Positions 6,296 to 51,963 of a DNA stretch of 64,000 nucleotides are shown here, one piece after another. The translations under genes and the position numbers were made by a program. Position 1 is the stretch's first letter, and every line of letters begins with the position of its first letter. The notes under the pieces are model-generated. The model was given only the letters and a program-made list of their open reading frames with translations, was not told the origin of the DNA and ran no database searches. Source of the stretch: Enchytraeus crypticus (Eukaryota > Annelida > Clitellata > Enchytraeida > Enchytraeidae); the NCBI GenBank assembly GCA_905160935.1, contig CAJHZI010000683.1:1-64000 (forward strand). The letters are read 5' to 3'.

Positions 6296-7370
6296 ATGTC
6301 AGGAACATCTGAGGCTGAGGAAATGGACTCATATAAGGATAAATGTCAAGGTGAAGGAAGGCCTGGCTGCTATCAGTACATGTCTGCTCACCTAGATGAA
6401 GGTAAACCACCTGAACGTCGAGCACCAACCACATCAGAGCGGATCACCAGAGCTATGTATCTCACCAGCACCATGCATGGGCTCATTCATATGAAAGTGT
6501 CCAGAGGTTAGCGGTAACTCTGCTTCCGTGCGCGACATTGTCTTAAATGGTATTGGAAAATGTAACTATAGGCCTACATGTATATATATATAATATATTA
6601 TATATATATATAATATATATATATATTATATATTATATACATGTATATATAGGCCTATATTTATATATACTCGGTGTTTTTATAGCTGATACCCCTAATT
6701 ACTTTTACATTAAAGTCATAAGGAGTTGACCAATGTTCTTGAAATTTACAGTACGTGACAGCTGCCAATTCTACCACACATAGAGAAATTTTGTTCGAAT
6801 ATCTTAAATAACGTGAAAGTTATAGTTTTGAGAATATGAGTGGGGGCAGATAAGAAATTTCCAGTACAGGATTACGAGCGTGTTACGTGCAGCGTAAAAT
6901 TATCTTCATTAATATAGTAGCTAACGCGTAAGATACAATTTCTGCAAATAATATTTTGAATAGTAATCATTTCTTTTCAAAACGACATAAATACGTGCTG
7001 ATACGTTCGTATTTGACAAAGTTATTGAACTTTTAATGCATGAATTAAGTCCTTAGGCCTACGTGTGCTTGGCGAGAGCTCAGCTGCCGTGAGACGATGA
7101 GAGCGCAGTACTATTGCAATGCATGCATTAAAAGTTAGATGGTAGAATCAGGATTTGTCGCTACAGCTTCTGGAAAAATTAAATCGCAAGAGAATTTTGG
7201 CTGGTTCTGGATACGTGAACAAGAGACAACCGCCTTCCCCAGAGTTCTACGCCATCAGGGGTCGACGAGGCTCCGCCCCCTGTCAGCCCGAGTAGGCAGA
7301 GTCCACAAGTCAATGACCGCCTCGTCACAGAAGTTCACAATCATGGACTCACGGAGATCAATTACCAAGT

Positions 7371-7438
<68 letters not shown>

Positions 7439-7809
7439 TATTATTATTAGTATTATTAATATTAATATGGCTATAATTAATGATATTGCAAGGCCTAAAC
7501 ATCATTCTATTGCAGGAATTGTGAAGAGATTCTTCTGGATTCTAATTTTCATCGGATCCACAGCTGGTCTGATCTACAACTCCGTGACTCTGACGGTAAA
7601 CTACTTCAGCTACCCTATCATGGTCGACCTGGAGATAGTGCCCTACCAGAAGAAAGATTTTCCAGCGGTTACACTGTGTAACCTGAATCCAGTGAAACGA
7701 TCCAATCTTCTCCGTAAATATCAACTGCTCAGCTCAGAGCCGCCGAGTTCTGTGTCCACGTCCCGTTCCACTGAGTCTGGAAGAGCGGGACGAAGGAAAA
7801 GATCTGTAG
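6296..7809 (+). CDS. Gene A exons 1-2: cytoplasmic N-terminus, TM1, first ectodomain strand, furin-like site
   Basis: Exon 1 (6296-6506) encodes 70 residues, ending ...[13 protein letters not shown], with the conserved His-Gly gating motif. Donor is G|GTTAGC in phase 1. Exon 2 (7516-7809) follows acceptor TATTGCAG and begins [18 protein letters not shown], a hydrophobic TM1, then NYFSYP, then [16 protein letters not shown], the hallmark start of a DEG/ENaC ectodomain. The exon ends in a Ser-rich linker and GRRKRSV before donor GTAAGT. The spliced glycine codon at the junction is recreated exactly as in other family members' TM1 entry. Intron 1 ends in a (TTA)n tract. Confidence 0.88.
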
Positions 7810-10800
7810 GTAAGTAGGTATAAATCCATCATTAAATAAGTAATCAGTAAATAAGTTAATCATTTAAATGAGTGACTAAATAAGTCAATAAACATTTTAA
7901 TAAAATAAATTATATAATTATAAAAAGTTGTGAAGGCTCTTTGAAATTGACATAGTAATTTGTCTAGATCAGCAAGTGTTTTTATTCCAGCATTGTTACG
8001 GTAACCTTTATCTCTAAATAATGAAATATTTATATGCAATAATTCTACTAAATCATTAAACCAAACTTGCTTTATTAGATCTCATATATTAAGCATGGGC
8101 CAAAAATAAAAATAACAATTGTAAGCACACTAAAAACAAATTAATTAAATTTTAGTGAAAAGATCAACGTCTCACGCCTAATAGTAGTCGAACCGAGTAT
8201 GGTTCCACTCAATCTTTCTCTGCTGTCTGAACTATTCGCCAATTGAAACTGAAACACAATTTTGAATATTCATGAGTATTTATATTCCGACTGGTAGCCA
8301 AGTTTGGCATCAAGATTGCGTTTTACGCAGTATTGACGTTTGGCATCAAGATTGCGTGAAACGCAGTGTTGATGCCAAAATTGTTTTATGTAATAGTCGT
8401 GTTTCAAAACCGAGCCCTACCGTATCTGACAGTAGGCCTACACTATGGAAGCAGTTTTGAAACTACAGATTTTAAAATTACACTGCCAATAACTGAGTAC
8501 CAGCTGGTTACAATAAACTCCTAGTGGCTACCATGTAAGATTGGAACTATCGTTTGGTTATCATGTAAGTTATCATGTAAGATTTGAACTATCGTTTGGT
8601 TATCATGTAAGATTTGAACTATCGTTTGGTTACCCTGTAAGATTTGAACTATCGTTGATATGAAAATTTCTGATAAATATTTAATAGTAAAATCCACTTG
8701 CAAGCTCGGAAGCATTGAAGGTGAGGGAAGATAAAAGTTAGACTATATGCTGACCAGACAACGGAACAGTAACAGTGTAACGAATTCTAAGGCATACTCA
8801 AGTGCGGATGAAAATTCAGATCACAGTCAAGTAATGGCCAAAACATTGGGTGCAATTAAAGAAAAATCTTAAAATAACAATAAGATATCGAATATGAACT
8901 GATTTAACTAGTAAGAAGTCCATAAAATATGGCTGTGGAAAGACAAATAAAGAATGACAAGTACAACGAAATTACAAGGTAAACGAAAAATGGGGTCAGC
9001 TGAAAGAGGTTATTAAAATGAGAGCTAAAGAAGGATATGCTTATCTTAACGCAAAACATGGATAAAACTCATAAATCACACGAGAAGTGTAAGACAAAAA
9101 GAACGAAAGGAAGACATGGAAAGGTATTTACGTGAGTTATGATCGAACGGAATATAGAAGGTTAAACAATGAGCTTAGATGCACTACAGAATCGCAAAAT
9201 ATTGTCGGAGTGAAAAATTCGAGGAATTAGTAGAATTTGACAAATGAACGATCTAATCTGTTGTATCAAGACGTCAGGAAATTGACAAAAACTTACATGT
9301 ATACAAGTAAGGAGATGCAAAGAATATTAACATATAATTATGCTATAGACGAGTAATTGTTTAGACAAAACTTTAGTGTTTCTTCGATTTCCTTCTTTCT
9401 TTGTTTACTGCGGTGGTCAGCTCGATAGGGTACTTCAGCACCCTCTCTGATGGCCGTGGTGGGCAAATTTTAGTTTCTGTTTGACGCTACATATGTTGAT
9501 TCTCACTTTTGTCTGCTGATTTATCTGTTTTCACAATTATTTGTCCATGTTTGATGAATTTCTAAATAAACATACTTAATAGGTTACACATTTTTCCTAG
9601 AATGGATAGCACTTCACGATCTTCGTTAGCTATGCTAATTCGATCAATCTTATTGTCATTGCACTTAGTACAGATTATACACCTATTGTTGCAATAGCTA
9701 CTGTAGTTATTAGTTACTGTAGTTCTTATAAAAGTCTTAAGCAATTACACTAGGTTTAGTTAACTTAATCTAGCATCGTTTAACGAGAGCCTTATCGTAT
9801 CTCTCCATTGCTCTACCTCTCTCTCCACCAACATCATTCTCCAGCAAGCAGTGTCCATCAACACTGGTCAGCCACCGCACAACACCTACCGGCCAACTCT
9901 GTCACCCAGCACTGTCCATCAAACTCTTGCCGCACACAGTCTATCAGCGCTTCATTGACGGAGTCTATATACTTTTATATATAGTTTTACACAACGATAT
10001 ACTATAGAAGAGAAACTCAGATATGCACAGACATTCACAGAGATACTCTATACGTAGGCCTATACCCAATGCTGTTATTAAAGCTCATTCTTCGAAAAGT
10101 CTTTGGATACATCGGACGTCTCTCCAGACTATGGATTATTTAGGCATTCATTCTGGATATTCACTAGGATTACACAACGATATGGGTTAACTTGATGAAA
10201 TCATGCGGGTTAACAAAGTACAGCATTATACAAATATAATCAATAAGTTATCATAATTTTGTAGATTTTATCACAATTCGATATACATGTACTTTCCCAA
10301 TTACCATATAACTATGCATTCCACAATCTGCATGTATTATGCAACCTGTATGAATTCTACAATCTACAAGTAATCTACAATTTATATGTATTCAACAATC
10401 AACATATTTTGGACAATTTATATGTATTCAACAATCTACATGTATTCTACAATCCATATACATAATAGATGTGTTTGTATTCTAAATGCGCATCCATTAC
10501 TGCATGCAGCCTATTCTACATTCCACGTGCATAGAGCTGGTGAAGGTGGAGCTTGTAAATCATCACAGATTGTACAGTTAATGAAATTATAAGCTACAGG
10601 GAAAGCCTTAAATGCATTTTATGCTGAGCAAAAGGTTATACCTCTTTGGTTTTGGACAGTAGTTCTATGATAAGGGGAGAGACGTTGAAAGTAGTTCACG
10701 AGTCTGCAGGTATTGACTTATTGTGTTTGACTGATGTCGTAGATTACGAATGTGACATAGGCTGGCTGTTGCACGGACCGTACTGTTACTATACCTCCAC

Positions 10801-13800
10801 CTCAGCTGGAACCTTCCAGCAGGCCTTCATGCAGTGCACGTTCGCTTTCGGGGGAGGCCTGGCGAGCGCCTCTGACCAGGCTGAGATGGATTTCATCGTT
10901 GGCTTCTCGTGGGTACCAACATAAACAAGGGCGTTTTAACTTCCGATTCTGTTTGTTGAGAATTCGTTTAATGTACTGTAGTATATTCTCCATTAATCTT
11001 AACTCAGACTATTTTTGTTATTCTGTATAACAGTCCACTTTTTCTTTCTGATTTTTTCTACAATTCAATGTCTACATCGCCACTACATAATGATTCATAT
11101 TTTAAAATCGTTATTACAGATAAGCACCATGGGGCACAAATCCAACTTTTTGGAAGGTCATTCTTATATCCCCGTTAGCTTCACTCGACGTAATTGAAAG
11201 TTATTTTCAACGAGTGAAGAAGGAAATAATGACTGCTGCAGTAAGAGCTACTTAGGCAGGGACACTTGCTAATACATTTGGTATATCATGTGTATAACCA
11301 TACCAACAAATGGAATTTGCGCAATTGGTGGAACTCAAAAATTGCTAGAGAAAGTAAAAGGAATGGGATATACGCTGAACTTGACTCATTACGCTGCAAT
11401 GCTTTAGCAATTGATGTATGTTTAAGCGTATATCACGATCGTGTATTAGAAATAGAATATTGACAACAACAACCACAACAACAACAATACCATTAGAGTG
11501 CTACTGTTGTTCATGACCACATCGAGTACTATGGAATCGAACAAAATCTGATGAGCAGAGTTTAGTTGGTCAATAAACGGCGTAAGCCAAAATTCTGGTA
11601 ATCAGTCTAAGGATACTAAGATACTAGCAGAATGGAAATATACGTGTTGATCCCAGTTCATGAACATTAGCTGGAAAGGAAAGATCAAAGAGAAAAAATT
11701 AAAAAGAGAATAGCTGATAATGGGACTTGGAATATTAAATTTATTAGGAGTCTTTTGTTATATTCTGTCATATAGTTCTTTTTACTGTGATAAAGCGTCT
11801 TCACGTTAAAGCTTAAATTTTTACTTCATTAAGATAATCCCTGCGAAGAATGAAACTAGTTATTGCTAGTTGAAGAATTACATGGTGCTAATTGGCTCAA
11901 ATTATTTTATAAAAACGCATGGTTATTTATATTTACTTCTGCTGCAGATCTGCAATCACGAAGAAGAACTATTATTTCGGTTTGTTCAAATCCTCCGCCA
12001 GTGTGACGGCTAACACGTTCTGGAACGATGGTAACCCGTCGCCCTATCGCCCGGCCTGGAGCAAGCCCAACCCTGACGAAGCGGCAGAGTGTATCTACTA
12101 CCAGCCTGACGGGAGACTCGCTGATACCAACTGCGCTAACAAAAACCTCTACACCTGCAAGAAAGACGCTTGTATGTACATGTATATCAGACGGTTTTTA
12201 AATTAAACTAGTAAAGAATGACAGAAATATCTTTATAGCGACATTAGGGACTTTTGCCTTCAGTTTTCATATTATTTTTCAATCTTTTTAAATGAAGAGT
12301 AACTCTTGTTGAAACTCTTTCTTACAATTTTTCCAAAAGGAACATTGATTATAATTTATTCTAACTTAGTCTTTTGCGCAAGAAGCAAGTTCCATGATGT
12401 CAGAGTAACTAGTCCGTATGAATTCTAATTTTCGGAAAAAAATATTTTTGACGGAATCGGTTAACTCTATAGAAACGAAGATTTTAGCCATTGGATAGCG
12501 ATTCGCCACGGATCTTAAAAAATCGTTATAGATTGTAATGAAATTTATTTGCGGAAGCAAAAGCAGACTTCTGCAATAGATATATCTATGATAACAATTA
12601 CCAAATTTTCGCCGATGTAGTTTTTTTTACAAACTCGATCTCGCATTTGTGCTTCGTAAAATTGAGACTGTTTATCCTCAACTTAATATTTATTCTGAGC
12701 TGTTACGGTTTACATATTAAATTACAAATTTCATAATGCCAAAAATTATGGAAAGCACTTTTGCTACTCTTTAATCAAAGTAAATATCTCTTAATTTATT
12801 TTTTACATTATTATTATTATTATAATTATTGCGACTATTTCAGCGCCGATAACAACCCTTGAGCCCACTACCGTAGTAGCGTTTACATCCAACACGTACC
12901 CAAGCAGACCCACTGCAACATTGCAAGAGGCGACCACGCAAACTATCACACAGCTTCCAACTACGACAAAAAACACCCTTACTTCAACACCGAGAGTTAC
13001 CACGCCTATAACTTTAAAAGTCACAACTCCAGAGGTCGTAGAATTGACAACATCTAGCACCATGGAAGTCCCTGAACACACGACGGCAAACGTCGTTACC
13101 ACTCCTGCGGTTTCTGATGTTACGCCGACAAATGTTCAAACTGTTGCGGTAAAAACCAGTGCGAACTCTCCAAAATTGGTCACTACTACGAAGTCTACAA
13201 AGCCAAGTACGGCTTCACCTGCACCTGTCGCTACAACAGCTAAGACCACCATAAAGCCCGGTACATCGACCAAACCAACCGTGGTGCCCGAGTCAGACGT
13301 GACGTCATCACCGAGTGATGGAATTACTGCAAACTCTGCCACAGCTGGCTTAGTAAGCACCAAAGTGATACCTGTTACTACGAAGACTCCGTCGTTGGCA
13401 TCGACTACTGCCAAAGTTACAACTACAAAAGATGTCAAAGTCACTACAACTGGAGCTCAATCGAAAGGAAGCTTTTCGTTACGTGGAGGTGAAACTAAAT
13501 CGATTTCTCTCTCAGTCACAACTGCCCAGTCGTCAGTTGTGACCCAGACGAATCAAGCGTGGGACACAAGTCCAGAGGAAACCACTGAAGAGATGACATC
13601 TGATCCTACATCCTGGTTACATTTCAGTACTGGGTCACCTACGATCAGCATCGTTCCAGTGCCGGTGTCCGAGAGCTCCAGCTGCTGCTGCAACTGTTGT
13701 CAGCCAGCTACTACATCGGAAAAATCCTGCAAATCTTGCACAGATGAAACAGCAGAAAAAGCGTCAATTTGTGCCTTGAACCTACTTCCTAAGGTTATTC

Positions 13801-16800
13801 CTAAAGCCAATCCAAACTCTGATCGAGACAAGCCGACATTCACTGCGCCTGATCCTATGGATGGATCAGCCTATCAGGGAAGACCCGGATACACTACGGA
13901 GTTTAAGGAACTGGAGTATATGACGGAGCTGCTGGCCTCAATGAGTGACGAGGAGAAGATAGCTTTTGGGTACACACTGGAGGACATGGTGTTTGACTGT
14001 ACGTACGATGGAGTGCCTTGCGACATGCAGAGGTGAGAGTCTAATTAGGAGCGAGAACAGCAGTGGCATAGATCCCCTATGCGATTTCGGTAAAATTTTA
14101 CTTGAGCACCATATTGCGGAGAAATGCGATTTGCGCAAATGTCGCAATGGACTAGAGGGTCAACAACAACTGACGTAGAGTGCTACAGTCGTCCATGACA
14201 ACATTCTGCACTATGGTACCAAAGTCAGTCCGATGAGCAGAGTGTGGGGCCAAAAAGTGCAAGCCAAAATCCGGGAAGTCAGTCCGAGGTAGGGTACTAG
14301 TGAAATGGAGGTCTACGTTTTGGTCTCAGTTCCTGTGCAATGGTTGAAGAGGAGAGGTCAAAGAGAAATACCTTCAACGGTCTATGAAATAGTTCATAGA
14401 GAAGGAAAGGACGATCAGGAGAAGATGAGGGGGTAAGCAAAGTAGAAGAAAGAGAATTCCAGATCTGCGGAGCAGTGTGCTGGAAGAAGCGCTTGGAGAG
14501 ATTACTGCGAGAAGGAATGCTAGGTCGCTCTATAATAACTAACTTAGAGGACTTAGATAATGAGCAATTAATTATCTGGATGACTGCATAAATGAAGGTT
14601 GTCTCACTTGTAGTAAGTAGGACATGTAACCTCTTCCCGAGGTAGTGATAGATTTTATGTCTGAGTAGCAGCCTTGAAAACAATGCGTTCTCTGACTTTG
14701 AGCCAGTGCAGAGACGTAAAGCTGGTAAAGCTATGGTTAACGTCTATTTCCTCACTCGAAAGAGATGTCAGTGAGAGGTGAGCCCAGGATTTGAACTCCA
14801 CACATACTGATCAGCTTTCGAGTATCTTACCGACATCGCCACTGGCTCCAGCCACATCAAGACGTCAAGAGAGGAGTCACGTGGGAGTGCTTAGAGCGGC
14901 GGAAGACTCCACGTACGAGGGAATTCTGGATGAACTGCAAACTGTCGATCTCACAGATTGGCAGATTCAGAAACAATGAGTTCCAGTAGTCCAGTTTGGA
15001 TTGCTCGAGAGCCGCACCGATGGTAGAAGCGGTCTTAAGGGTAAGATATGGTCGTATACGACGCAGATCTCTGATGTGGAAGAAGCAAGCCAGTGAAGTT
15101 TTGGTGATGTGATCATGGAATGTGAGATGCTGGTCGAGGATGACACTGAGGCTCTTGACAGAAGAAATTGGTGTGATGGCTAACTCAGTAGTGAGAGGGA
15201 AGCCTCATTCAGTTGTTCAGGTTTCCAAAATAGCAAAAGCAGAGTCTTGGATGGGTTGAGTGCTAAGAAATTAGCAGACATCCATGAATTCATCGAATGG
15301 AAGCATTGCTGTAGGCGTGCTATGGCATCAGAATAGGAGTGTAGGATTAAGCATGTGTATATCTGAGTATAGTTGGTGGTTAAGTGAATGAGAGGAAATA
15401 AAGGAGCTTAAAGTTGAAGTGTAGAGGTTGAAGAGGATTGTAGCAAGAACGGAGCCCTGAGGCACACCGTACTTGAGGTTAGAAGGTGCAAAGGCGTACT
15501 CTTGCAATCTTGCGCTGAGAGTACGATCGCTTTTCGTTTAGCTTCGTCCTTCCGATGCCAAACTGCTAACAATTCCTAATATTCTCACGTCCTTATGTAG
15601 AAGTTAATTTTTTTCAGCTCCTGCTGTTTGGACCTCCCTAGCTCATGATCTTCGCTTATGTTATACTACTTCCACTTTACGTTGTAAGTTGAAAACATAT
15701 ATCTTCCAGCCATAGATGTTTTTCATCTTTCCTGAGGGTGTTTGATTATCTAACCGGCACCGTTTAGGATCTTTTTCTTTCTCTTCAGCACATGTTTTTA
15801 TCAGATCGTTTGGGTTCATCGATTTGTAGTGACATGCGATGGGGGGACGTCCCTGAAATCATCCTTGTATGAGAAATCGGACGTTAAACCTTTATTGTTC
15901 CTATTACTATTATTAAACTTAATATTTCTGTTAAAGATGGAGTTGTTGAAAACATTTTTTGGAATAATATAGTGTTAATTATCTTTAAATTTAATTAATA
16001 TTAAAACTTGCTCTACCTCATGTATTCTGCCAAGTGGCATGTCCAAGGTAAAAATTAATACTCAGAGTCGTCTTTCACGCTCCATATGGAGCACTCCATA
16101 GATCAACAAGTCGATCGCTTTATAAAAGCCTATGCCCAACCTATACCTATGTAGCCTACGGCTTGCGAATAGATATGGCTTATGGCTTCTAATATCATAT
16201 CTGATTACAGAATTAAAATAAATAATACTAGGCTATAATAATTATAATTTAAAGCGTGACAATACAATAAAAATGTTTAGAATACGACAATACTGTGTAT
16301 GATAGTGTCGGATGTTGGGTAATAGACTCACATGTTCAGTATAAATTACATTGAAGTCATGTTTTTCGTTCTTAACTTCACTGCTGAATATAAGAAAGTG
16401 AATTTTAGCATTTTAAACCAATATATCAAATTCCATCTAACTAAATATAACGTTTATTTAAGCTTCCAAATAGTATTAAATTTGCCACATGGGTTGATTG
16501 TGCTGTTTTAGAGATTTTGTTCCATTTTACAATCCTATGTATGGAAACTGTTTCATATATAATTCGGGTTGGGACAAGACCAGATCTGTTAAAGAAGCCG
16601 CCATCCCTGGGAGAGGTCATGGTTAGTGTTGACCTTTTAAGAATCGGTAAAGGAATAAATTTCTATAAATGTTTTGCAAAACTTACTTTGCGTTCCAACT
16701 TGGTTAATTTACATAATTAAAGAAGCATCTACTATGCAATCTTTAAATAATCTGTAAGCACAGGTCCTCTGGATGGATATACTGCATTATTTATTGCTGT

Positions 16801-19159: not shown

Positions 19160-19217
<58 letters not shown>

Positions 19218-39032: not shown

Positions 39033-39159
39033 AGATACTTCCAAGCATCCATTTTCTCTCACGGGACAGGATTTGAGCGCTGATCGTGGACTCCATATCC
39101 AACCTCTGCGTTGTTGAAGGTATTAGGTAACTATGTAGGTAATTAAAGATGCGAAACAA

Positions 39160-39590
39160 AGACAATAAGGAAAGAAGTTGTCAGGAAATTAGAAGCGTTG
39201 GAAAGGTGGATATGGGCAACAATGGAAAAGATTAGCTGGATCCAAGAAGTTTCAAATGTAGAAGTCTTTAAAGAGTTGGTTAAAATAGGCAGTTGATAAA
39301 TGATATAAGAATACGACAAAGAATTGGATACGACATATTCTTCGTGAGATTTACTTAGGGGAAAGTTTACTAAAGGAGGCCATTGAAGGGAAAATGGAAG
39401 GAAAAAGATACAGAGGCAGGCAGAGAATAGGAATGTTAGATGATTTAAAGATAAAGTCGTATATGGATCCCTCTTAGTCTTCTTAGTGCACTGTCTACTG
39501 GCAGGTCCATGGTATATAGCGTCTCTATTCGATCTTCTCTGTCTTCCGCCTTCCTCTTCGTGTCCACATATGATTGACATATCACGTATG
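39160..39590. mobile_element. Two LINE alpha fragments joined tail to tail
   Basis: 39175-39470 is plus-strand RT tail lacking its last about 100 bases. It is followed directly by 39480-39590, the missing last 100 bases in minus orientation (CTTAGTGCACTGTCTACTGG... to CACATATGATTGACAT). Confidence 0.7.
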
Positions 39591-40562: not shown

Positions 40563-40736
40563 ATGGAGCAACACAAAGTGGAAAATTCTGTTGTGTACAG
40601 GAAGGTTCTCAAGAATAAATTCAACAGTGACGAGGAGAGCGAAACGGTGGCATCATCTCTCCAGTTTCTCTCCACATACTCCAATGTTCACGGATTCAGA
40701 AATGCATTCGAAGCGCGGAGTGAGTTCTTTTTGTTT

Positions 40737-40796
<60 letters not shown>

Positions 40797-41509
40797 TAGT
40801 GCACTGCTTACTGGCAGGTTCATGGTATATAACGCCTCCACTCTTCTCTGTTTTCCGCTTTCCTTCATTTCCACATATGCGTGGGTCATTAAATCATCTA
40901 GCATACCTAATCTCGGCATTTGTTTATTTTGTTATAATATCAGAGCATAAGGAGATATGAGATGCACCAAGATTTACTAGGCATACTATTGTAAGTTGCT
41001 AGGCAAGTTTAATTTAGTTTTAAATTAGAAGAAAGATAAATAGTAGCCTATCTACTATTTATCTTTGTTCCAATTATCAAATCCAACTTGCTTTCAGAAA
41101 TATCACTAAGTTTCTTGTGCGCCAAAAATTCCTAGATAGAACGTTTGGATTTTAGATTGCAAGTTTTTTTTAGAATGGCCAATATTTACTTTAAGAACGA
41201 CAATAACTTTACAACCATTATTTATCAAATGGCTACCAGTTTCGTTTCTTGTCTTAGATTTGCTGAAACGTATCTTCTGGCTGCTCGTTTGTCTGGGTAT
41301 GTTCGGTGCTTTGGTTTACAACCTGTGGGCTCTCGTAACGGCATACCTCCAGTATCCCGTCCAGATCCAACTGAGCTACGTCACCGAAACAAAGAAGAAC
41401 TTCCCAGCAGTGACAATCTGCAACATGAGTCCGGTGAAAAGATCTTCACTTGTCACAGCTCAGAATAACCCAATCAAGAGTAGTAGCAAACGAAGAAGAA
41501 AGCGAGCGA
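40563..41509 (+). CDS. Gene B exons 1-2: cytoplasmic N-terminus, TM1, first ectodomain strand, furin-like site
   Basis: Exon 1 (40563-40719) encodes MEQHKVENS... ending STYSNVHGFRNAFEAR, with the gating His-Gly pair; donor A|GTGAGT, phase 1. Exon 2 (41258-41509) begins NLLKRIFWLLVCLGMFGALV (TM1), continues AYLQYPVQIQLSY and KKNFPAVTICNMSPVKRS, and ends in SSSKRRRKRA before donor GTATGT. The ATG at 40563 is the only one in frame ahead of the motif in this exon. A LINE tail with a (CT)n tract begins 22 bases after the donor. Confidence 0.87.
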
Positions 41510-43649
41510 GTATGTTGCAGTAATAAAAGTGAAATCATCATCATTATCATCATCATCTTCCCTTGAATCCCAGTTTAACCAGGGTCGAGATACATATAGA
41601 CTGTCTCAAATTCTCTCTGTCCTACACCATACCACCAGCCAATCCCCTATTTGAGACTTTTTCATTCGTTTAAACTTTTGTAGCAATAAACTAAAATAAA
41701 AGTGAAGTCAGTTTCCGAATTTCGGTTATTATTTTCCCGACGCAATGTGAGGATAAATAGCATAAATGTACATGGAAATTCAAATGATGTTATCAATACT
41801 AATATGATTACCAATACGTATTAAAGTCTACCTGGGACCTAATAATATGACATTAAACTCAAATATTGACATTTAATATATTATACAACATTGCACAATT
41901 AACGTGTAATGATAGCTTTCCAATAGATGTACATATAGGGCATAAAATTACACAAAAACCACGAAAGAGGGGCATGTGCATACAAAATATCATGGAGTCA
42001 GCAGAGATTACTTTTTGCCGAAATTCTGGGCCAGTGGATCCATTCATTCATCACAAATGTTACATATAAAATCATGCATTTTATTTAAACTTTGTGTTTT
42101 GTTATTTTTAAAAGTAACTTATCCCATACCTGGACATTCCGTTTGTTTAAATTACGAAGTAAAATAATTTATAATGTGTATTCTTCAATTTGGCTATTGT
42201 TTATGATTGCTAATTTATGACTTAACCATAGAACAGTCGCAATTGCTATATATCATTGTTTATCGCTTAATTTCATAATACAAGATTCTGATTCTACTTC
42301 AGCCTATATCTGCCCCACTGGTTGGACGCTCTACACCACTAACTGCTACAAGTCAGGAATGAACAAGAACTACGACAACGCTCAGCTGGATTGTAAGAAC
42401 AATCAGTCCAGTCTCGCCTCTATAGCTGACTCTGCCGAGTGGAATTTTATTACCACGTGAGTGTCAATTAACGATCTCTAGGCAAAGATAATGTTATTGA
42501 TAATTATAATAAAAAGTTGAGTTTAATATTGTCTATTCTCTGGAAAGAAATAACTGTCAATCAGTAACTCGCGAGCCAATCCCAGGGTGGTGGAAGGTTA
42601 TTCTTAAATCCGCGCCGGCTGCAATTGATGCGCCATCAAAAGGCAACGATTACTAATATCAATGGAGAGGAAGGAGGAAATGGGTCTTAAAACAAGCATC
42701 TGTGCTTCCTGACACAGTGTGCCGTTTTGTTATGCTATGAGCCCAGGATTCAAACCCTGCAACTACTGAGCTAGTGACGAAACTCATACTGGACAAGCCA
42801 CAGGCTCACGCAGAGCAGTGACATGATGGAATAACCATCTCTGTCTTTCTCCTTGTTATATTAATACTTTAAGCTTTATACAAATTGAGAGAGAGAGAGA
42901 GAGATATGTGTATATTTAAGCATCAACACCAAATTACTGGCAAATACAAATAGAAATAAACATTTAAAATAAATAAAATAAATTGATATGTTGCAATTAG
43001 CCCATCTGCGGTTATCCGATTGTGATGGAAAACCGAATGAATTATATACTTTTGCAGGTAGATTTAAAGTAATCTATGCATTATTAGTTATACAACATGG
43101 AAACAGAATAACGTAGCAGAGAGAAGTTAAATTCTGAAGATCAGCGGATATTTGCTCTTATAGCATACACTTGTATTAGCATAGTGATTTGGGAACACCA
43201 CACTGCAAATGATCATAATTTTATTATAAAGATCGTTTTAGATATTTCGTTTTACAGAACTTTCGCTGCCGCAAATAAGAACTATTGGATTGGTCTTCAT
43301 AAAATCACTGCAACAATAGACAATCCAACCTACTGGACTGATGGGAACCCATCCACCTATCGGCCGCCCTGGGCTCCAACCAATCCAAACACTAAATACA
43401 ACTGTATAGACTACGTGGTCGTCTACAAAGCTCTATACGACGACGACTGTTCGATATCCACATACTACTACATCTGCAAGAAATCTGCTGGTTACAATTT
43501 TCCTGCGACTAAATTTTATGTAAATTTCATGTATCTAATTTTCCGTCGTCTCTGGTTTACATTTTCATTTAATTTTTATGTTTCGCTATCTGAAACTCTT
43601 TCGCGTTTACGTTAGGCTAATGCAAATTCGTTTGAGTATAGGAATAAAG

Positions 43650-43693
<44 letters not shown>

Positions 43694-46600
43694 ATAATAA
43701 TAATAATAATAATAATAATTATAATAATAATAATAATAATAAAGGTTTAAAGTCCGTTCCCTCATACAACGATGATGTCAGGGACATTACTAATAAAAAT
43801 ATCTATTTTTTTCTTATTTTATTCAAAATATTATTATTAATATCATTTTACTAATCAACTTTAGCAAGCGTTGTATATTATTCACATACATGAACTTGTA
43901 GGCGAGTATTACAATTTCGCGTGTCCGGTCTGCTACATAATGTAATGGACCAATTTTAAATTAAGCTTACATCTATCCTTTTAATTCTTATTGTCTGTAA
44001 CTAATAATTAGAGGTATATTGAAATCGTAAGAATTTAGTTTATGCAGTGAATCGATTCCGAAACTACTTACAGAATTTGAATAAGAATACGTAACGTATA
44101 ATATCGAGTTTAAAAAATTAATTTTGTTATTTAAATTGCAGAGATATACTTGACATCAACAACTTCAAAGATTGCAACAACTACTGCAAAGATTGCAACA
44201 ACTACTTCAAAGATTGCAACAACTACTTCAAAGATTGCAACAACTACTTCAAAGATTGCAACAACTACTTCGAAGATTGAAACAACAACTTCAAAGATTG
44301 AAACAACTACTTCAAAGATTGAAACAACTACTTCAAAGATTGCAACAACTACTTCAAAGATTGAAACACCAACTTCAAAGATTGAAACAACTACTTCAAA
44401 AACTGCAACAACTACTTCAAAGATTGAAACAACTACTTCAAAGATTGCAACAAATATCTCAATTGCAACAACTACTTCAAAGATTGAAACAACCACAACA
44501 AAAGTAACTGATGTGGAATCACGCGCTACAAGCCTAACTACAACACTCGTCCATCCAGATCAGGAGAGAGTGACGCGATGTTGTTGCTTTCATTGCTTAA
44601 AGGATGCTTCACAGTGTTGCCAGTGTCACGTTACAAACAGTACTAATAGAATTCAACATAATAAAACATCTTCGTCAAGCTACAAAAACCCAGAGTTCCT
44701 AAGAAACAGACAGACATTTGAATCAGCGAAATCACTAAACCTTACAGCCTTTCCGGGATTGAAGAAATATACCGATGAATTTAGAAAGATGGAAAAGTTT
44801 AGCGAGATATTGGCAGAACTGAATCTGGAGGTGAAAGCAGCAATGGGGTTTACAATGCAGGAGTTGATTCTACAATGTCTCTATGATGAGAAACCTTGTG
44901 ATCTAGAGAGGTATGTAGAACTGACGACAGCGTCGTTAAAAAACAGTTTTTATGCAAATTATTATCAATGAAAATAATAAATATTCAATAAAATTTCGCA
45001 TCACTATCCAACAATTTTTCTTTTTCACTTATACTAGGTACTATTATACAATTATTAGTACACCTTATATTACTATTTAGTCCACATCTCAAACTTGCTA
45101 TCAGTTGTTAACTGGCTGGAGCCAGTGGCGAAGTCGGTAAGATATTCAACCGCGGATCAGTATGTGCGGGTTCAAATCCCGGGCTCGCCCGTCACTAACA
45201 TCGCTTTCGAGTGAGGAAACTGACGTTAACCTTAGCTTTACCTTAACCTTAGCTTTTTATAATGCGTAATTGGCTTTTTTAAATCAAAAGTTTATTGGAC
45301 TTTAAGTTCATGAAAATTTCTTTTGATTTGTGTATGACACTAAATTATGAAAAATAGGCTAATTATTTTAGTACCAGACATAGAATACACGAATTTAATT
45401 CAAGTAATCTTGCGACATAGGCCTTTATTGGTTCATTTGTTACATGCACGCTTCGATTTTGCACAGAATTGCTTTGCAGCGTATTTTGTAGTTTCGTTAA
45501 TCGATTTCCTATACATGTATATACCTCTTTAACAAATATTATATTGCATATACAGAGGCGTAAAACAGTAGCCTTGTTTGCATGAGATAATTACAATTAT
45601 TCACTGATTGACTATCTTTTTTCTCTCTCTTTCTCTCTCCGACATTCTCTCTCTCTTTCTCTAACCCTCTCTCTATCTCTATGTGAATAAGCCTATATAT
45701 TACAAAAGCAAACCATTTCTCTTATTGCACGACGACTCTTATTTATTTTCAGAGATTTTGATCATTACTTCAATCCAACAATGGGTAACTGCTACATCTT
45801 CAACTCCGGGTGGAACGCCAGTCTACCAATCAAGACAACTAGAGCTCCAGGAATACGACGAGGTATGGCTTTACTCTATTTAGTCAATCTATTAGACATC
45901 TCAATAGCCTAGGCTTTACGTCATGAAGTTTTACATGACAAATCCTGAGGTGAATTGAACTCTCGTGTGTTCGAATCCCAGCCGCGCCGATCTGAAAATA
46001 AAATTTCTGACGTTCACTCGACTGGTTACAAGGAAAACGGAGTAAATTGACTAACGGTTTAAACATGTGTTACTGGAAGTGATAGATATCAACATGGTTG
46101 ATCATTTCACTATAATGCGTGTTTACTTATACTCCTAAATTTCATTGTCTTAATGGCAAAAAATAAAATAAAATATTAAAACATCAAAATCTTCTTCCTT
46201 TAAATCCCAGTTTAAATAAGGACGGGATTTAGAAATTATTAATAATAAAATAAAGAAAGATGCACTAATTTAATATTTTTATTTAATTACTTTATTGATT
46301 GATTCAGCCTTATTTCATCAACCCGTTTTGTGCCCGAGGTGCTGAAGAACAGATCTACCGTGGACTTCATCTGTCGTAAAAGGCGACAAAGCACTACGAT
46401 CCAAACCAACGTCAGAAAGGGAATTTGGTAAGTGAGCTCCTATGTTAGGAAATTGCTACAAAATGTTCTCTGACGAATTACACGATTTGGTCTATTCGTT
46501 GCCTGACCCTGACTGGACTGAATTTCATGGGATGATGACGGTGATGATGATGATTATGATGATGATGATGATGATGATGGTGATGGTGATGGTGATGATG

Positions 46601-49600
46601 ATGATGGTGATGGTGATGATGATGATGATGATGACGATGACGATGACGATGATGATGATTTATTTTTTTAGGACTACGACTAATTCTGAACATCAATCAG
46701 GACAATTATATCTCAGAGTGCGGTAGTGTTGCTGGGATCAGAGTTGCCATCAATGATCAAAACATTATGCCTTTTCCTGAAGATGATGGTATCACTGCTA
46801 TCCCAGGTTTCGAAACTGAAATCGGAATATCAAAGGTTTATTTTTAGATGTAAAGTTGAATAATTTCATATTTTGAAAACTAATTAATAGGTTTAATTAT
46901 TTCGCAAATATAGTTAGCAAAAGTATTCTGATCTACATGTATATACAATCTTACATCTATAGTCTTTACACTGGTATGTAAATTATGCAGTACTTTAACT
47001 ATTCAGCCGAAACTTCAAGAATGTTAAAACTAAAAACTCGCTTTATTTTAACTGTTGTAGCTCTGAGCCGTATTAATGAAAATCAATAACAATAAAACAA
47101 CTTGCTAAAATGATGACTTCAGTGCAGATATACTTCAGTAAAATTTTGATGTGGTTCTTAATAATTGGAACACGAATTAGAATTATGAAGCCGGGAGACT
47201 TAATGGAATGTTATAAAACTATTCTCAATAAGCTCTAGCCTAGCTGTAGCTGAATTTAATAGTAACATTTTTAAAATTGTGCTACAATTTAAAACCACAG
47301 GTGGTATCAGATTTTTTCTATACGACTCTACGTAGTAATTCTTCAACCCGTGTTGTACGATGCTTAGATCGGAGTAACGAGATTGCCAAGTCCTTATGGA
47401 GAATGTGACCCGGATCTGGAAAAGGATTCCGCGCAGAATGTTTACTCTTCGGAATATCCTGTCAACTACTCGATAAAGGTACCAAAGTACAGAACGATCT
47501 AAGCCAAGTTTAACGTCAGTTTCTGGTGCTGGAATAATGACGGATAGCATTGTATTTGATCCCCAGCATCTGTTGATCAGCAGTCGGGCAGCTTACCGAT
47601 ATGATACTGCCTCCACCCAGACATACAACTGTATATTTGAAGATATAAAACTGTATATCTGGGTTGCCACAGATATACTTTCTAGTGCAGCAATATTATA
47701 AAGATGAGATATTTAAAAAATGTACCGTAATTTGGAGTCTGTTTTTCAACATTTCTTTATTACGCCGCATGGTTATGAACCCTCGTGTGTTCGAATCCCA
47801 GCCGCGCTAAACTGAGAGTAAATCTCAGACATTCACTGGACTGGTTACACGGAATATGGACTAAATTGCCTAACGTTTTAAACATGTAGTACTAAAAGTG
47901 ATAGATATCAACATGGTTGATCATTTCACTATAATGCGTGTTTACTATATATACTTTCAGACGTGTCAGAAGACTTGTTATCAGACGAACCTGATAGAGA
48001 CATGTAGATGCTATGACGCCCAGTACCCTTCCTACAGCTTAGCCTCCAACAACGCCACAGTACCGGTCTGCTCCATTACTGACATTCAACAGAGTATGTG
48101 CTGTAGATAACTTATAAGATACGAAATTCTAACAATCAATCAATAAGAATTTAACGTCCGGTTCCTAGCCATAAGGTAATGTCAGGGACGTCTCTTGCAG
48201 ACTTTACACAAACAGGCGCCAAATCACCACATGATGATGACTGAGCTAGTACACAGAGACCACAAAAGAAAGCGAGATCAAAACAGTGCAAGTCCAAGAT
48301 CAAAGGCAAGCGGGTCAAAAAACACATCCCTTGATACATGTGTTTCTTTACTCGTCACAAAGATATAGTATCAATGTATATCAGACACACACAGATACTA
48401 TCAAAATATAATCATAAAGAAATGCAAGAAACCTTATAGAAACGTTATGTCTTTATAAGAATTAATTAACTATATCACGTCCTCCTGCAATGAAATTATG
48501 ATTAAATAAATACCTGACTTTATTATAGGCCAACCTTCACCTTTTTACTCAAATGAGGCGATGTCTGTAGTATGAAAAATGCTTGTTTTTCTTCAGTCAA
48601 AGAGACAGGTCTAGCATAGCAGAATTGAATATATTTTTTACCAGATTTTAAGAAACGTGTGCAGCGTTATTATTCTTTGTATCCAAACTATTTAGCAGAT
48701 TTGCCATTATCACTATCAATAGCTAAACACTGGAACGTCCATGAGCTCTATAGTGAATATTCATTGCACCAACAGTCCAACATGCATCTACAAATTTTAA
48801 ACCTACAATATATTCGTGTACTATATACTTTTGTATGTTTATTATAAGTATTTTGTATATGAAGACAGGATTGAGTGTTGCGGGATGGTATAAAGTTCCA
48901 CTCGTATGTAGCCATTTTTGTACTAGTTTAGATATGGGTAAACAGGATAGTTTTCTCAGGGAATGACGTCCCTGCCCCGTAAATGTTAGTCGAAGCTGAG
49001 GAAAGCATAGGGGTCCACCTCATCATTAGCAGAATCCCCAAGAATAATGGTATATCACTAGGAATATTATAAATAGTTTAAAGATCCACTCGTAGGTGGA
49101 CATGAAGAGAAGACAGCAGATAGAGATGAGTAGAGGCGTTATATACCATGGACCTACCAGTAGGCAGTGCACTAAAAGAGTTTAGATATTAATTTAAATG
49201 CAATTGTTATTCAGCTTATTATTACAATTGAGGTCTTTCTGCAAAGTAGTCTCGAAGACCGAGTTCGGTCATGACACTGCTATATAAGTTTTCGTTGTTA
49301 ATAATAGCGTAATATGTGTAATAACGTATAATGAATTATGTTATTAATTATTTTTAAATAACTTAAAATTAATTATGGATGTTTTAGTCGTATGTCGCTA
49401 CAATGTGTCTCTTCAATTCGGTACCAATCAACTAAAGTGCCATTGTCCGAACAGATGCAGGTATACAAAAGTGTTAGAAGCAAATATAAGTAATAGGCCC
49501 TAACGGCAGACATGTTATGATTTAAATTTGTAAATTGACAAATTAATTTAGACTCCATTGAGTTTATATCTTCTATCATCTATCTTGGGCTCGCCGTCAC

Positions 49601-51963
49601 TGATATCGCTTTCGAGTGAGGAAACTGACGTTAACATCGGCTTTACTAGCCTTTTTTTACGACACATTTTCCATCTACCACAAAACCACTACAACGCTCT
49701 TTACTCGCCGGCAGTGCTCGGCGTTCAATCTCTCACACAACAACAGCAGACGTTTAGAACTTCTGTGAAGACGAATGGTCGTGAAGATCCTGAAGTGCTT
49801 CTGTATATAAATATACTGACATAATTAAGTAGCAAAATAAATTAGAAAGTATATTATTTGTTATCGATGTAATAATTTTTTATTCCCTTATGTAAGCCTA
49901 TATGAAAGAAAGAATTATCGTATAGTATTACCTGTTTTTATTTTATATATTTCAGTGACAGCTTGTTTAAGAAAATTAGATCAACGACGGCTTGGTCAGC
50001 AGAGAGATACCAGGTAAATCTCAGGATTATTACTTCAATGATCCTAGCATTGATCGTCATCATCATCATCATCATCATCTTCTTCTTCTTCTTCTTCTTC
50101 TTCCCTTGTATCCCCGTTTAACTAGGTTCGGGATACGAATAGACTGTCTCAAATCCTCTCTATCCTACATCATATCATCCATCAGTCAGTCCACCTTTAG
50201 TGAATTTTCCGTTCTTCAAAATTTTAGTAACAATTTCTGGAGTCTAGGCGCTCACTAACCGAATATCCTTTCTGACGTTGGTGTGGGTCTTAGTGCTTTA
50301 GTCGCCTTCTACGACACGCGCAGTCACCGGGTGGTCAATTCTTCCAAAAACCCGGACACTACACGGGGATCTCATAGCACTGATATTGTACTTAAAATAA
50401 CTTCTCCAGCAAGAACAACAACAATTTGAACTAAGCTACTGACAACATCGAGCAGAACTTAATCTAATCCAGTACTTAATCTAATCCAGTACTTAATCTA
50501 ATCCAGTACTTAATCTAATCCAGTACTTAATATATTCCAGTACTTAATCTAATCCAGTACTTAATCTAATCCAGTACTTAATCTAATCCAGTACTTAATC
50601 TACTCCAGTACTTAATCTAATCCAGAACTTAATCTAATCCAGTATTTAATCTATTCCAGAACTTAATCTAATCCAGTACTTAATCTAATCCAGTACTTAA
50701 TCTAATCCAGTACTTAATATAATCTAGTACTTAATCTAATCCAGTACTTAATCTAATCCAGTACTTAATCCATGCCGATTTGAAAAAAAACTGCAATTCT
50801 GTGCAAAATCAAAATCCCGCAAAGTAGTCTAATTAAGTTTTGGGAATTACTGAGAAGAGGTTTAAGTGCTGGTATCATCGCATGATAAAAGCAGTCGTTG
50901 ATCGTTGCCTTAAAGACAGAAGTTCTTAAGCCAATGAATCGACTAAATCATGGACAACTACATAACGTAGTAACTAATGAACTAATGTCAACCGCATATC
51001 CAATTAAGAATTTGTCTGAGAAATTGTGTCAAAATTATGAAATTATTGGTTAATTGAAGATGGTTTTTCAGTCACTGCATTGCAATCTAAGATATGCGAT
51101 TTCCACCAGTGCTAACTGAGTCAAAGATCAGATGTACTGAGATTTAAAATGGTGTAATTGTTTTAATTGGTGCTATATTTTCAGAATATATTTCAAGAAA
51201 AGTTTTATAAGTCCCAGTCGTCCAGTGGAGATGGTAAGAGTGTGGAACAAGTGATGAAGGAGAATCTGCTGAAGCTCGACGTGTACTTCACTGATATGAC
51301 AACGGAGCACAACGATCAAGTGCCTGTCTATGACGTGAGTGTTTATAGCTAACTCCTCATAAAAGTGTGACGATTCATTGTCAAGGTTGAACTTTATAGC
51401 CAATAGGAAATAAATAAGCAGACACAAGAAGGTGAAGGCCGGATGCAGTTTGTTGGCACGCAAATGCTGTTTTTATATTGTCAATCCTAGCAGTTTGATC
51501 TTAAAAGCACAAAATAATCGTTTTCAATGTGTTTATTTCTTATTAAGAGACAGGATAAAATGATAAAATGCTTTGCAGCCGTATGTAATCATCAGCTTCT
51601 AAGGTGTAAATCCCAATGCAAATGTCAATTTAAGAAACATTTTATACTTTTCTTGTAATTATCATTGTGTTTGTTTTTCTTTGGCGCAAATTTTTATAGT
51701 CTTCGGTCTATACCCTATAGGCGCTGCGGCAGATCTCTAACATTAGAGGAAGCCTTGGGCTGTGGTTTGTTAACAGTACAACGTATTAACTTCATCGATG
51801 TTTATAATTACAGGCGCTATGGCTGATCTCTAACATTGGAGGAAGCCTTGGGCTGTGGTTTGGTTGTGCAATCATGACGCTGTTTGAAGTTCTTGAGTTC
51901 CTCGCAGACGTCCTGGTTGTCTTATCTCAAAAGTTCTCCAAACAACCTGGAGCGAACCGTTAA
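40563..51963 (+). CDS. Channel gene B: tandem paralogue of A, DEG/ENaC with C-type lectin and mucin-like domains (13 exons, 837 aa)
   Basis: Predicted join: 40563-40719, 41258-41509, 42303-42456, 43258-43490, 44142-44910, 45753-45862, 46672-46835, 47368-47478, 47961-48093, 49388-49460, 49956-50013, 51185-51334, 51814-51963 (2514 nt, in frame). Seen: His-Gly at residues 43-44; TM1 about 58-80; FPAVTICNMSPVKRS; basic KRRRKR at 130-135; CTLD about 137-265; Thr-rich repeat stalk about 271-385; Cys cluster 412-427; GFTMQELILQC; TMGNCYIFNSG; NIMPFPEDDG; SPYGEC; TCQKTCYQ; TM2 about 797-818. The layout, splice phases and lengths of exons 7-11 equal gene A, so the two arose by tandem duplication. The protein is shorter mainly because the stalk is shorter. 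Expected role as for gene A; A and B could co-assemble in one trimer (inference). Confidence 0.88.
40741..40920 (-). mobile_element. LINE 3' end (family alpha) with (GA)n tail
   Basis: (CT)n at 40741-40797 is followed by TTAGTGCACTGCTTACTGGC and the minus-strand tail. It starts 22 bases after the gene B exon 1 donor. Confidence 0.8.
41533..41690 (-). repeat. SINE-like repeat (family 3), truncated
   Basis: ATCATCATC tract then TTCCCTTGAATCCCAGTTTA and AGACTGTCTCAAATTCTCTC, matching 50055-50200. Gene B intron 2. Confidence 0.6.
42303..43490 (+). CDS. Gene B exons 3-4: C-type lectin-like domain
   Basis: Exon 3 (42303-42456) reads TYICPTGWTLYTTNCYKS, then NYDNAQLDCKNNQSSLASIA and EWNFIT. Exon 4 (43258-43490) reads NKNYWIGLHK, TYWTDGNPSTYRPPW, NPNTKYNCIDY, LYDDDC and YYICKKS. 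The six cysteines, the SLASI loop, the WIGL motif and the terminal YICKK are textbook long-form CTLD. As in gene A the EPN/QPD position is altered (PTNPN) and WND is replaced by YDDDC, so sugar specificity cannot be read off. Phases (1, 2, 1) match gene A. Confidence 0.9.
42457..43257. other. Gene B intron 3
   Basis: 42550-42800 holds a diverged repeat with GAGCCCAGGATTCAAACCC (B-box-like), perhaps an old family 2 SINE. The rest is unremarkable. Confidence 0.4.
43660..43800 (-). repeat. (ACT)n/(AAT)n tract attached to a family 5 SINE end
   Basis: Trinucleotide tracts 43660-43742, then AAAGGTTTAAAGTCCGTTCC and GATGTCAGGGACATTA, the inverse of GGACGTTAAACCTTT. Gene B intron 4; the remainder to 44141 is AT-rich. 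Confidence 0.6.
44142..44910 (+). CDS. Gene B exon 5: 21-nt-repeat mucin stalk, Cys cluster and finger helix
   Basis: Acceptor TTAAATTGCAG, donor AG|GTATGT, 769 nt. From about 44156 to 44500 the exon is a tandem repeat with a 21-nt period encoding TTTSKIA or TTTSKIE, about 16 units, some degenerate. Nearly every unit offers several Thr/Ser O-glycosylation candidates. Downstream, 44579-44626 encodes CCCFHC....CCQC. The tail (EKFSEILAELNLEVKAAMGF then TMQELILQC, CDLE) is the native finger helix that leads into exon 6. An antisense frame and a Gln/Leu-rich frame over the repeat are artefacts of periodicity. Confidence 0.9.
44156..44500 (+). repeat. Coding 21-nt minisatellite of the gene B stalk
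   Basis: About 16 in-frame units of ACTACTTCAAAGATTGCAAC type, unit variants differing mainly at GCA/GAA (Ala/Glu). The length preserves frame at every unit. Confidence 0.92.
45114..45243 (+). mobile_element. tRNA-derived SINE (family 2)
   Basis: GGCTGGAGCCAGTGGCGAAG, B-box GGGTTCAAATCCCGGGC, CTTTCGAGTGAGGAAACTGA, AGCTTTACC. Gene B intron 5. Confidence 0.8.
45753..47478 (+). CDS. Gene B exons 6-8: core DEG/ENaC ectodomain
   Basis: Exon 6 (45753-45862) encodes RDFDHYFNPTMGNCYIFNSG. Exon 7 (46672-46835) encodes GLRLILNINQDNY, AGIRVAINDQ, NIMPFPEDDG and PGFETEIGISK, very close to ASIC-type sequences. Exon 8 (47368-47478) encodes IGVTRLPSPYGECDPDLEKD. Phases 2/1, 1/0, 0/0. Exon 7 is preceded by a (GATGAT)n tail of a SINE-like repeat about a dozen bases from its acceptor. 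The exon 8 acceptor has a weak pyrimidine tract, but frame and length (111 nt, as in A) support it. Confidence 0.87.
45896..46128 (+). mobile_element. tRNA-derived SINE (family 1), near full length
   Basis: CATCTCAATAGCCTAGGC..., B-box GTGTTCGAATCCCAGCCG, ending CACTATAATGCGTGTTTAC. Gene B intron 6. Confidence 0.85.
46330..46660 (+). repeat. SINE-like repeat (family 3) with long (GAT)n tail
   Basis: CGTAAAAGGCGACAAAGCAC, CCAACGTCAGAAAGG, then (GATGAT/GGTGAT/GACGAT)n from 46526 to 46660, twelve bases before the gene B exon 7 acceptor. Confidence 0.75.
46836..47367. other. Gene B intron 7: no feature seen
   Basis: AT-rich. A long antisense frame over 47200-47550 covers exon 8 on the wrong strand and is a shadow. 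Confidence 0.5.
47768..47946 (+). mobile_element. tRNA-derived SINE (family 1), 5'-truncated, abutting the exon 9 acceptor
   Basis: Begins inside the B-box region (CGTGTGTTCGAATCCCAGCC) and ends AATGCGTGTTTAC at 47946; the exon 9 acceptor ATACTTTCAG ends at 47960. Confidence 0.85.
47961..51963 (+). CDS. Gene B exons 9-13: cysteine-rich palm/knuckle, thumb-to-TM2 segment, TM2 and stop
   Basis: Exon 9 (47961-48093): TCQKTCYQTNLIETCRCYDA. Exon 10 (49388-49460): IVCRYNVSLQFGTNQLKCHC, then PNRCR. Exon 11 (49956-50013): SDSLFKKIRSTTAWSAERYQ. Exon 12 (51185-51334): NIFQEKFYKS...KENLLKLDVYFTDM. Exon 13 (51814-51963): ALWLISNIGGSLGLWFG, then TM2 and stop TAA at 51961-51963. The pore motif reads G-C-A (residues 805-807). 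A tRNA-derived SINE ends about 15 bases before exon 9, and a broken copy of the exon 13 start lies at about 51717-51769. Confidence 0.88.
48137..48310 (-). repeat. SINE-like repeat (family 5)
   Basis: AAGAATTTAACGTCCGGTTC, CATAAGGTAATGTCAGGGAC, ACAAACAGGCGCCAAATCAC, AGCGAGATCAAAACAGTGCA. Almost the same sequence returns at 63758-63925. Gene B intron 9; the rest of this intron up to 49074 holds nothing recognised. Confidence 0.7.
49075..49182 (+). mobile_element. LINE 3' end (family alpha)
   Basis: GATCCACTCGTAGGTGGACA ... CCATGGACCTACCAGTAGGC then AGTGCACTAAAAGAG. Very short. Confidence 0.65.
49588..49655 (+). repeat. Partial family 2 SINE
   Basis: GGGCTCGCCGTCACTGATAT, CTTTCGAGTGAGGAAACTGA. 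Gene B intron 10. Confidence 0.6.
50055..50375 (-). repeat. SINE-like repeat (family 3) with (ATC)n(TTC)n tract
   Basis: Fullest copy: trinucleotide tract, CCCGTTTAACTAGGTTCGGG, AGACTGTCTCAAATCCTCTC, CTAACCGAATATCCTTTCTG, TTTAGTCGCCTTCTACGAC, CACGCGCAGTCACCGG. Confidence 0.7.
50455..50772. repeat. 17-bp (ACTTAATCTAATCCAGT) minisatellite
   Basis: About 18 direct units in gene B intron 11, without spacers. Confidence 0.9.
51717..51769 (+). pseudogene. Partial tandem copy of gene B exon 13 (pseudo-exon)
   Basis: The stretch after CCTATAG repeats the acceptor and first about 50 bases of exon 13 (51814 onward) with a few changes: GCGCT, ATCTCTAACATT, GGAAGCCTTGGGCTGTGGTT are shared. Translation in the same frame keeps ALxxISNIxGSLGLWF before diverging to VNS and an early stop. 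It lies 97 bases upstream of the true exon and has a plausible AG acceptor. Confidence 0.75.

Follow-up and report, generated by a model that had tools for sequence, protein, structure and literature searches.

Two tandem annelid genes predicted to encode ENaC-like DEG/ENaC channel subunits with a C-type lectin-like domain and a Thr/Ser-rich stalk in the finger

Members of the DEG/ENaC family of channels have ectodomains with seven family disulfides, and in the cryo-EM structure of the epithelial sodium channel ENaC a GRIP domain lies between the finger helices alpha1 and alpha2, the latter containing beta W218; it is this GRIP domain that carries the furin sites of ENaC together with its inhibitory tracts (PMC6197857). 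Within the family, ENaC has been placed in clade B (PMC10507113). How such channels are coupled to the outside, be it by a tether to the matrix or by recognition of a surface, is an old question. We know of no ASIC or FaNaC that has an inserted lectin-fold domain. In C. elegans, the response of a neuron to bacterial polysaccharides and peptidoglycan depends on the DEG/ENaC subunits DEL-3 and DEL-7; the full pathway of polysaccharide sensing is not known, and C-type lectin receptors are discussed by the authors, who state that none of them has been implicated in that neuron and identify no sugar sensor (PMC12425002, preprint). Polycystin-1 requires its CTL domain to activate its channel, and for this activation a soluble fragment containing the domain is enough (PMC7728438).

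The DNA analysed here (the window) is a stretch of 64,000 nucleotides from the annelid Enchytraeus crypticus. It contains two tandem genes on the plus strand with coding exons at 6296..34201 (gene 1) and 40563..51963 (gene 2), in agreement with the limits of 6296..51963 proposed in an earlier note on this sequence. The exon sets were assembled from stop-to-stop open reading frames and from a search of the gene 1 frames against the 38-54 kb part of the window, which returned two colinear plus-strand exon sets. Splicing in silico joins 13 coding exons in each gene into a single open frame, predicted to encode 1,016 amino acids in gene 1 and 837 in gene 2. All 24 introns of the two genes are bounded by GT and AG, a count that is partly given by construction as the exon edges were set by hand to GT-AG and to frame. 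Not given by construction, however, are the colinearity of the homologous exons, the open frame, and the intron phases, which are equal in the two genes at 12 of 12 positions (1,1,2,1,2,1,0,0,1,2,0,0). An assembly join is an unlikely source of this architecture, since the window contains no N and both genes have the same architecture. A tblastn search of the window for a third copy, made with both proteins at E up to 0.1 and with the low-complexity filter, was negative, all matches falling within the ranges of genes 1 and 2.

One exon, the 58-nt exon 11 (31064..31121 in gene 1, encoding the palm strand SITAWPS, and 49956..50013 in gene 2), was missed by the similarity search in both genes. It was sought because the phases of exons 10 and 12 do not match in either gene, the former ending in phase 2 and the latter beginning in phase 0, and the search compared all candidate small exons of the set phases between the introns of the two genes. 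The best pair scored 38 and the next distinct pair 22, and none of 100 dinucleotide shuffles reached the score of 38, the best of them scoring 31. The donor of this exon in gene 1 could lie at 31115 or at 31121; the latter was taken, which makes the exon equal in length to that of gene 2. Near the 3' end of gene 2, 93 bp upstream of the real exon 13, a 54-nt stretch (51716-51769) partially duplicates this exon, repeating its acceptor and its first part at 91%. This duplicate was not counted as an exon but could be a competing splice acceptor.

The sequence around and within the genes contains further recognizable elements. A helix-turn-helix transposase-like open reading frame (36130-36570, plus strand; HTH_23, 4.5e-8) lies between genes 1 and 2, and reverse-transcriptase fragments below the Pfam cut-off lie in introns of gene 1 (25503-25823, plus strand; 19992-20270, minus strand). 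Downstream of the channel pair are lanosterol synthase-like exons, at 54307-54561 (plus strand) and in pieces near 55422, 56903 and 58913, whose first 66 amino acids match the lanosterol synthase chains 1w6j/1w6k at 3.6e-11, the other pieces having been recognized by eye; Pfam gave no match for 54307-54561 or for 55251-55529. ARAGORN, run with the bacterial code, found no tRNA in the window.

Both predicted proteins are firmly assigned to the DEG/ENaC family by their sequences. They match the Pfam ASC profile (PF00858), both membrane-spanning ends included, above the curated cut-offs, gene 1 at 2e-74 in two stretches and gene 2 at 1.4e-78 in a single match which runs across the insert described below (residues 38-817, profile positions 3-455). 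Exon 1 (6296..6506 and 40563..40719 in genes 1 and 2, respectively) encodes the HG motif that precedes TM1, MHGL in gene 1, within STMHGL of the cytosolic N-terminus, and VHGF in gene 2, within NVHGF. TM1 is encoded by exon 2 (7516..7809 and 41258..41509), along with FPAVTLCN and finger alpha1 in gene 1 and FPAVTICN in gene 2. Further on, exon 6 (16512..16621 and 45753..45862, the latter with MGNCYIFNSG) and exon 7 (18410..18573, with LNIHQEEY, and 46672..46835), which encodes palm and beta-ball, lead to exon 8 with the start of the thumb (19035..19145, PYGNC; 47368..47478, PYGEC), exon 9 with the thumb (24452..24584; 47961..48093, CQKTCYQTNLIETCRC) and exon 10 (29546..29618, CDCPDRC; 49388..49460, CHCPNRC). 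Exon 12 (31559..31696, alpha6/knuckle and palm, in gene 1; 51185..51334 in gene 2) is followed by exon 13 with TM2 and the stop codon (34055..34201; 51814..51963, GLWFGCAIMTLFEVLE). Each protein has two hydrophobic spans, its two top hydropathy windows beginning at residues 974 and 72 in gene 1 and at residues 807 and 61 in gene 2. Fourteen cysteines could be mapped by eye to the seven family disulfides in both proteins (gene 1: 125, 695, 702, 719, 810, 836, 840, 849, 851, 871 or 874, 881, 896, 898 and 902; gene 2: 107, 511, 518, 535, 626, 652, 656, 665, 667, 687, 697, 712, 714 and 718). Hence the proposal of the earlier note that each gene splices in frame into one protein with the landmarks of the family holds at the level of predicted splicing.

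Among solved structures both proteins appear closest to ENaC, a proximity that is one of phmmer score only. The best match of gene 2 is ENaC beta (4.3e-54); FaNaC (6.5e-38) and ASIC2 (9.1e-38) are also found among the 60 listed of its 141 matches. The best match of gene 1 is ENaC gamma (4.3e-48; 26 matches at 1e-20). The selectivity filter encoded in exon 13 reads GIA in gene 1 (34055-34201) and GCA in gene 2 (51814-51963). Thus the GxS filter, a usual but not a defining trait of the family, is absent in both, which we count as a departure; the same alignments show GGS for ENaC beta and SCS for ENaC gamma, so that the filter motif varies within the family. Loss of the filter serine may alter Na+/K+ selectivity, to judge by mutagenesis of ENaC alpha.

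The alignments with ENaC stop at residue 108 of beta and 115 of gamma and resume at residues 224 and 227, respectively. Left unaligned are 520 residues of gene 1 (141-660) and 368 residues of gene 2 (118-485), as compared with 115 residues of beta and 111 of gamma in the matching gap; these limits are edges of local alignments and therefore approximate. Since the break spans alpha1 to alpha2 and the GRIP domain is known to lie there, we conclude that the insert occupies the place of GRIP. In both genes it consists, in this order, of the furin-type motif RRKR, a C-type lectin-like domain (CTLD), a Thr/Ser-rich stalk and a Cys cluster, after which finger alpha2 begins. The earlier note had listed the same four elements but had set them against short finger helices in ASIC and ENaC; the elements stand, whereas the comparison needs correction in that ENaC has GRIP at this place and not merely short helices.

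The strict pattern R-X-K/R-R occurs once per protein, immediately before the CTLD and within exon 2 (RRKR|S in gene 1, RRKR|A in gene 2). Stalk, Cys cluster and finger alpha2-alpha3 are encoded by one uninterrupted exon in both genes, exon 5 (12844..14032 in gene 1; 44142..44910 in gene 2, where the finger includes LQCLYDEKPC), and the stalk therefore belongs to the channel whatever the fate of the CTLD. It comprises 280 amino acids in gene 1 (40% Thr plus Ser, but only 9% Pro) and 146 in gene 2 (51% Thr plus Ser, but only 1% Pro) and may, to judge from this composition, be a mucin-like, O-glycosylated stretch. The stalk of gene 2 is made up of a 21-bp tandem repeat (44157-44493; 16 copies, 89% matches) that encodes seven-residue units of the TTSKIAT type and is perhaps polymorphic in length. 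The Cys clusters, between stalk and finger, occupy residues 590-619 in gene 1 (CCCNCC, eight cysteines in all) and residues 412-427 in gene 2 (CCCFHC, seven cysteines); an odd number of cysteines in such a cluster may point to a disulfide between subunits.

Its place and the furin-type motif at its front would also suit an insert that acts like the inhibitory tract of GRIP, that is, a cap which keeps the channel shut until it is released by proteolysis, perhaps on both sides. In line with this, gene 2 contains an additional minimal RxxR, RVTR, at residues 408-411 (exon 44142-44910), where the stalk ends and the Cys cluster follows immediately; judged by its motif it is a possible second cut site, and head and stalk could be shed together if both sites were cut. 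Moreover, a KK pair directly follows the CTLD in both genes (residue 306 in gene 1, 262 in gene 2). However, gene 1 contains no RxxR between stalk and alpha2, so that its insert would need more than furin to be freed, and we regard an inhibitory cap as an improbable explanation of the architecture as a whole.

The CTLD itself is recognized by the Pfam profile Lectin_C (PF00059) at 5.8e-9 (37.1 bits) in gene 1 and 1.3e-14 (55.2 bits) in gene 2, above the curated cut-offs (22.6 bits). ASC and Lectin_C thus are found in one chain in both spliced proteins, as had been proposed, and at a threshold of 0.01 Pfam detects no other domain in either of them. We reject chance domain calls, as the two paralogues share exon order, phases and both Pfam matches. 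Compared with the PDB on its own, the CTLD of gene 1 matches a yolk sac IgY receptor best (4.8e-22) and that of gene 2 the secretory PLA2 receptor (1.9e-23); these scores sum several CTLDs of one chain. Six cysteines are present at the positions of the long form (183, 194, 211, 283, 297 and 305 in gene 1; 140, 151, 167, 237, 252 and 261 in gene 2) and in both genes presumably pair as the long-form disulfide set.

What this lectin fold might bind is another matter. Taking the Ca2+/sugar ligands to be E185, N187, E193, N205 and D206 in the numbering of MBP-A, we read by eye K/N/E/A/D in gene 1 (KPN...LAD), three of five ligands, and P/N/N/Y/D in gene 2 (PTN...LYD), two of five. The EPN/QPD...WND ligand set of Ca2+-dependent sugar-binding lectins is therefore incomplete in both genes by this reading, and we do not file either domain as a member of that group. 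A QPD in gene 1 was rejected as a sugar-site motif, as it stands after the Cys. Thus the earlier assignment of a CTLD is upheld as far as the fold is concerned, by Pfam and the six cysteines, whereas the sugar site reads as incomplete. No ligand is implied by such a site, and we speak of a lectin-fold head rather than of a proven lectin. Sugar binding by either CTLD is doubtful on this evidence; the partner of the head could instead be a protein, a lipid or the matrix, or the head could have a mechanical role.

These considerations bear on the idea, put forward in the earlier note, of an ionotropic lectin receptor gated directly by a ligand or by mucus, which we take to mean that a soluble or particulate glycan would bind to the CTLD and open the pore. 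The presence of the CTLD in the channel chain speaks for it, and the DEG/ENaC-dependent polysaccharide responses of C. elegans and the CTL-driven activation of polycystin could serve as precedents. Yet only three and two of the five Ca2+/sugar ligands, by the above reading, are in place, and the C. elegans channels were shown to be required and not to bind sugar. We therefore consider direct gating by a glycan to be quite improbable.

Does the CTLD belong to the channel at all? In both genes it is a module of two exons that is entered in phase 1 and left in phase 1: exons 3 and 4, each with one half of the domain, at 10710..10908 and 11948..12171 in gene 1 and at 42303..42456 and 43258..43490 in gene 2. 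Such a symmetric 1-1 module would be of the kind that is moved by exon shuffling. Skipping of exons 3 and 4 keeps the frame in both genes and, for this reason, an isoform that lacks the CTLD is possible and the domain may be an optional cassette. Taken further, the same property could mean that the CTLD exons are part of a transcript of their own, nested or with an alternative start, and are skipped by the channel. Open reading frames leave room in either gene for an alternative start ahead of the CTLD. Intron 2 of gene 2 contains three ATG open reading frames of at least 15 amino acids, the most hydrophobic of which, beginning at 42057, has one phase-1 GT. Intron 2 of gene 1 contains 28 such frames; among the six most hydrophobic of them, the first two lack a phase-1 GT and each of the following four contains one. 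The frame in gene 2 (42057-42164, plus strand) has a signal-peptide-like start and may be an alternative first exon or a product of chance.

Caution is also advised by a study of 20 helminth species which concluded from RNA-seq that most of the helminth-specific two-domain fusions are likely to be artefacts of gene prediction (PMC12964723), and which thus bears on fusions that are predicted without RNA. Here, however, two diverged paralogues agree: order, phases and module are the same in both although their CTLDs are only 38.9% identical. In addition, introns 2 and 4 of gene 2 are only 793 and 651 bp long, and a single exon encodes both the stalk and the channel finger. A separate transcript thus appears very improbable to us, and the embedding of CTLD and Thr/Ser-rich stalk in a DEG/ENaC subunit, as first noted from the sequence, is well supported by it.

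With respect to its conservation, the CTLD ranks last of five segments compared between gene 1 and gene 2, by a small margin; identity is 39.8-48.2% in the four channel segments, and dN is 0.66 for the CTLD and 0.45-0.63 for the channel segments. From these values we claim no more than that conservation of the CTLD comes close to that of the channel. As dS could be computed in only two segments (1.41, and 2.98 for the CTLD) and not in the other three of the five, dN/dS is unusable as a measure of selection on the CTLD.

How would such a head act on the channel? The reading that we favor, with confidence only somewhat better than even, is that of an ENaC-like subunit whose CTLD head, freed by furin and carried on a stalk, couples contacts outside the cell to the channel. 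Judging from the four-residue motif, furin would cut just before the CTLD. The larger of the resulting fragments would then begin with the CTLD as its free amino end, and the CTLD would be a head whose tether has its root at finger helix alpha2. Between the two fragments the conserved first disulfide of the finger would remain as a link, with a presumed pairing of C125 with C719 in gene 1 and of C107 with C535 in gene 2. Binding of the head to matrix, mucus or the surface of a cell or microbe would then pull on or reposition the root and change channel opening; alternatively, it would localize the channel to that surface. The precedents of polycystin-1 and of DEL-3/DEL-7 make a head-coupled mechanism plausible, although neither of them demonstrates a DEG/ENaC protein that has a CTLD of its own. 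We are more tentative about the fuller version, which we think would probably overstate the case: that the genes represent a family of sodium-channel subunits equipped with a recognition head, each chain being receptor and tether at once, that the furin-freed CTLD sits on a long glycosylated stalk on alpha2, that microbial, mucus or matrix binding gates the pore directly, and that the CTLD is an optional cassette.

Alternatively, the stalked CTLD may do no more than anchor or position the channel, at the matrix, at mucus or through partner proteins, with gating being constitutive or otherwise controlled. Many CTLDs bind without signalling, which is in favor of a mere anchor, and the wide differences between the two stalks in length (280 versus 146 amino acids) and repeat content would suit a passive spacer. 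On the other hand, the insertion point is not a terminus but the region that controls gating in ENaC, namely GRIP, and we therefore hold an anchor without influence on gating to be unlikely, if worth keeping in mind beside the coupling by a furin-freed head that we prefer.

The DEG/ENaC family itself is well known; it is the combination with a CTLD that is unusual. A literature search that covered titles and the beginnings of abstracts returned no DEG/ENaC-CTLD fusion among the papers listed, although unreviewed UniProt/InterPro records may exist, and the word lectin is absent from the main text of a phylogeny of metazoan DEG/ENaC channels (PMC10507113). With a lectin-fold head in its own chain, a sodium channel could attach directly to something outside the cell and, if this is true, both ideas on coupling, matrix tether and surface recognition, would become testable in one protein.

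Of the systems described, vertebrate ENaC (SCNN1A/B/G/D) shares with genes 1 and 2 the HG motif, TM1 and TM2, the ectodomain with seven disulfides and a furin-type motif between alpha1 and alpha2. It differs from them in having GRIP in place of CTLD, Thr/Ser stalk and Cys cluster, and GGS (beta) or SCS (gamma) rather than GIA or GCA as filter. ASIC and FaNaC belong to the same channel family by sequence and score below ENaC. DEL-3 and DEL-7 are likewise DEG/ENaC subunits and are required for polysaccharide responses (PMC12425002, preprint). The best PDB matches of the isolated CTLDs are members of the mannose-receptor family (secretory PLA2 receptor, yolk sac IgY receptor, lymphocyte antigen 75 and macrophage mannose receptor 1), which have repeated CTLDs and no channel, whereas genes 1 and 2 have one CTLD in the channel chain. 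In the polycystin-1 family (PKD1, PKD1L) with PKD2, the ectodomain is processed by proteolysis and bears a C-type lectin domain by which the attached channel is influenced (PMC7728438), much as we propose for genes 1 and 2. Processing there is by GPS autoproteolysis as opposed to the furin-type site of genes 1 and 2, and the likeness is one of working and not of membership. The channel fold of the polycystins is TRP-like and unrelated to DEG/ENaC, and the parallel with the activation of polycystin-1 by its CTL domain, if our reading of a coupled head is true, would be convergent.
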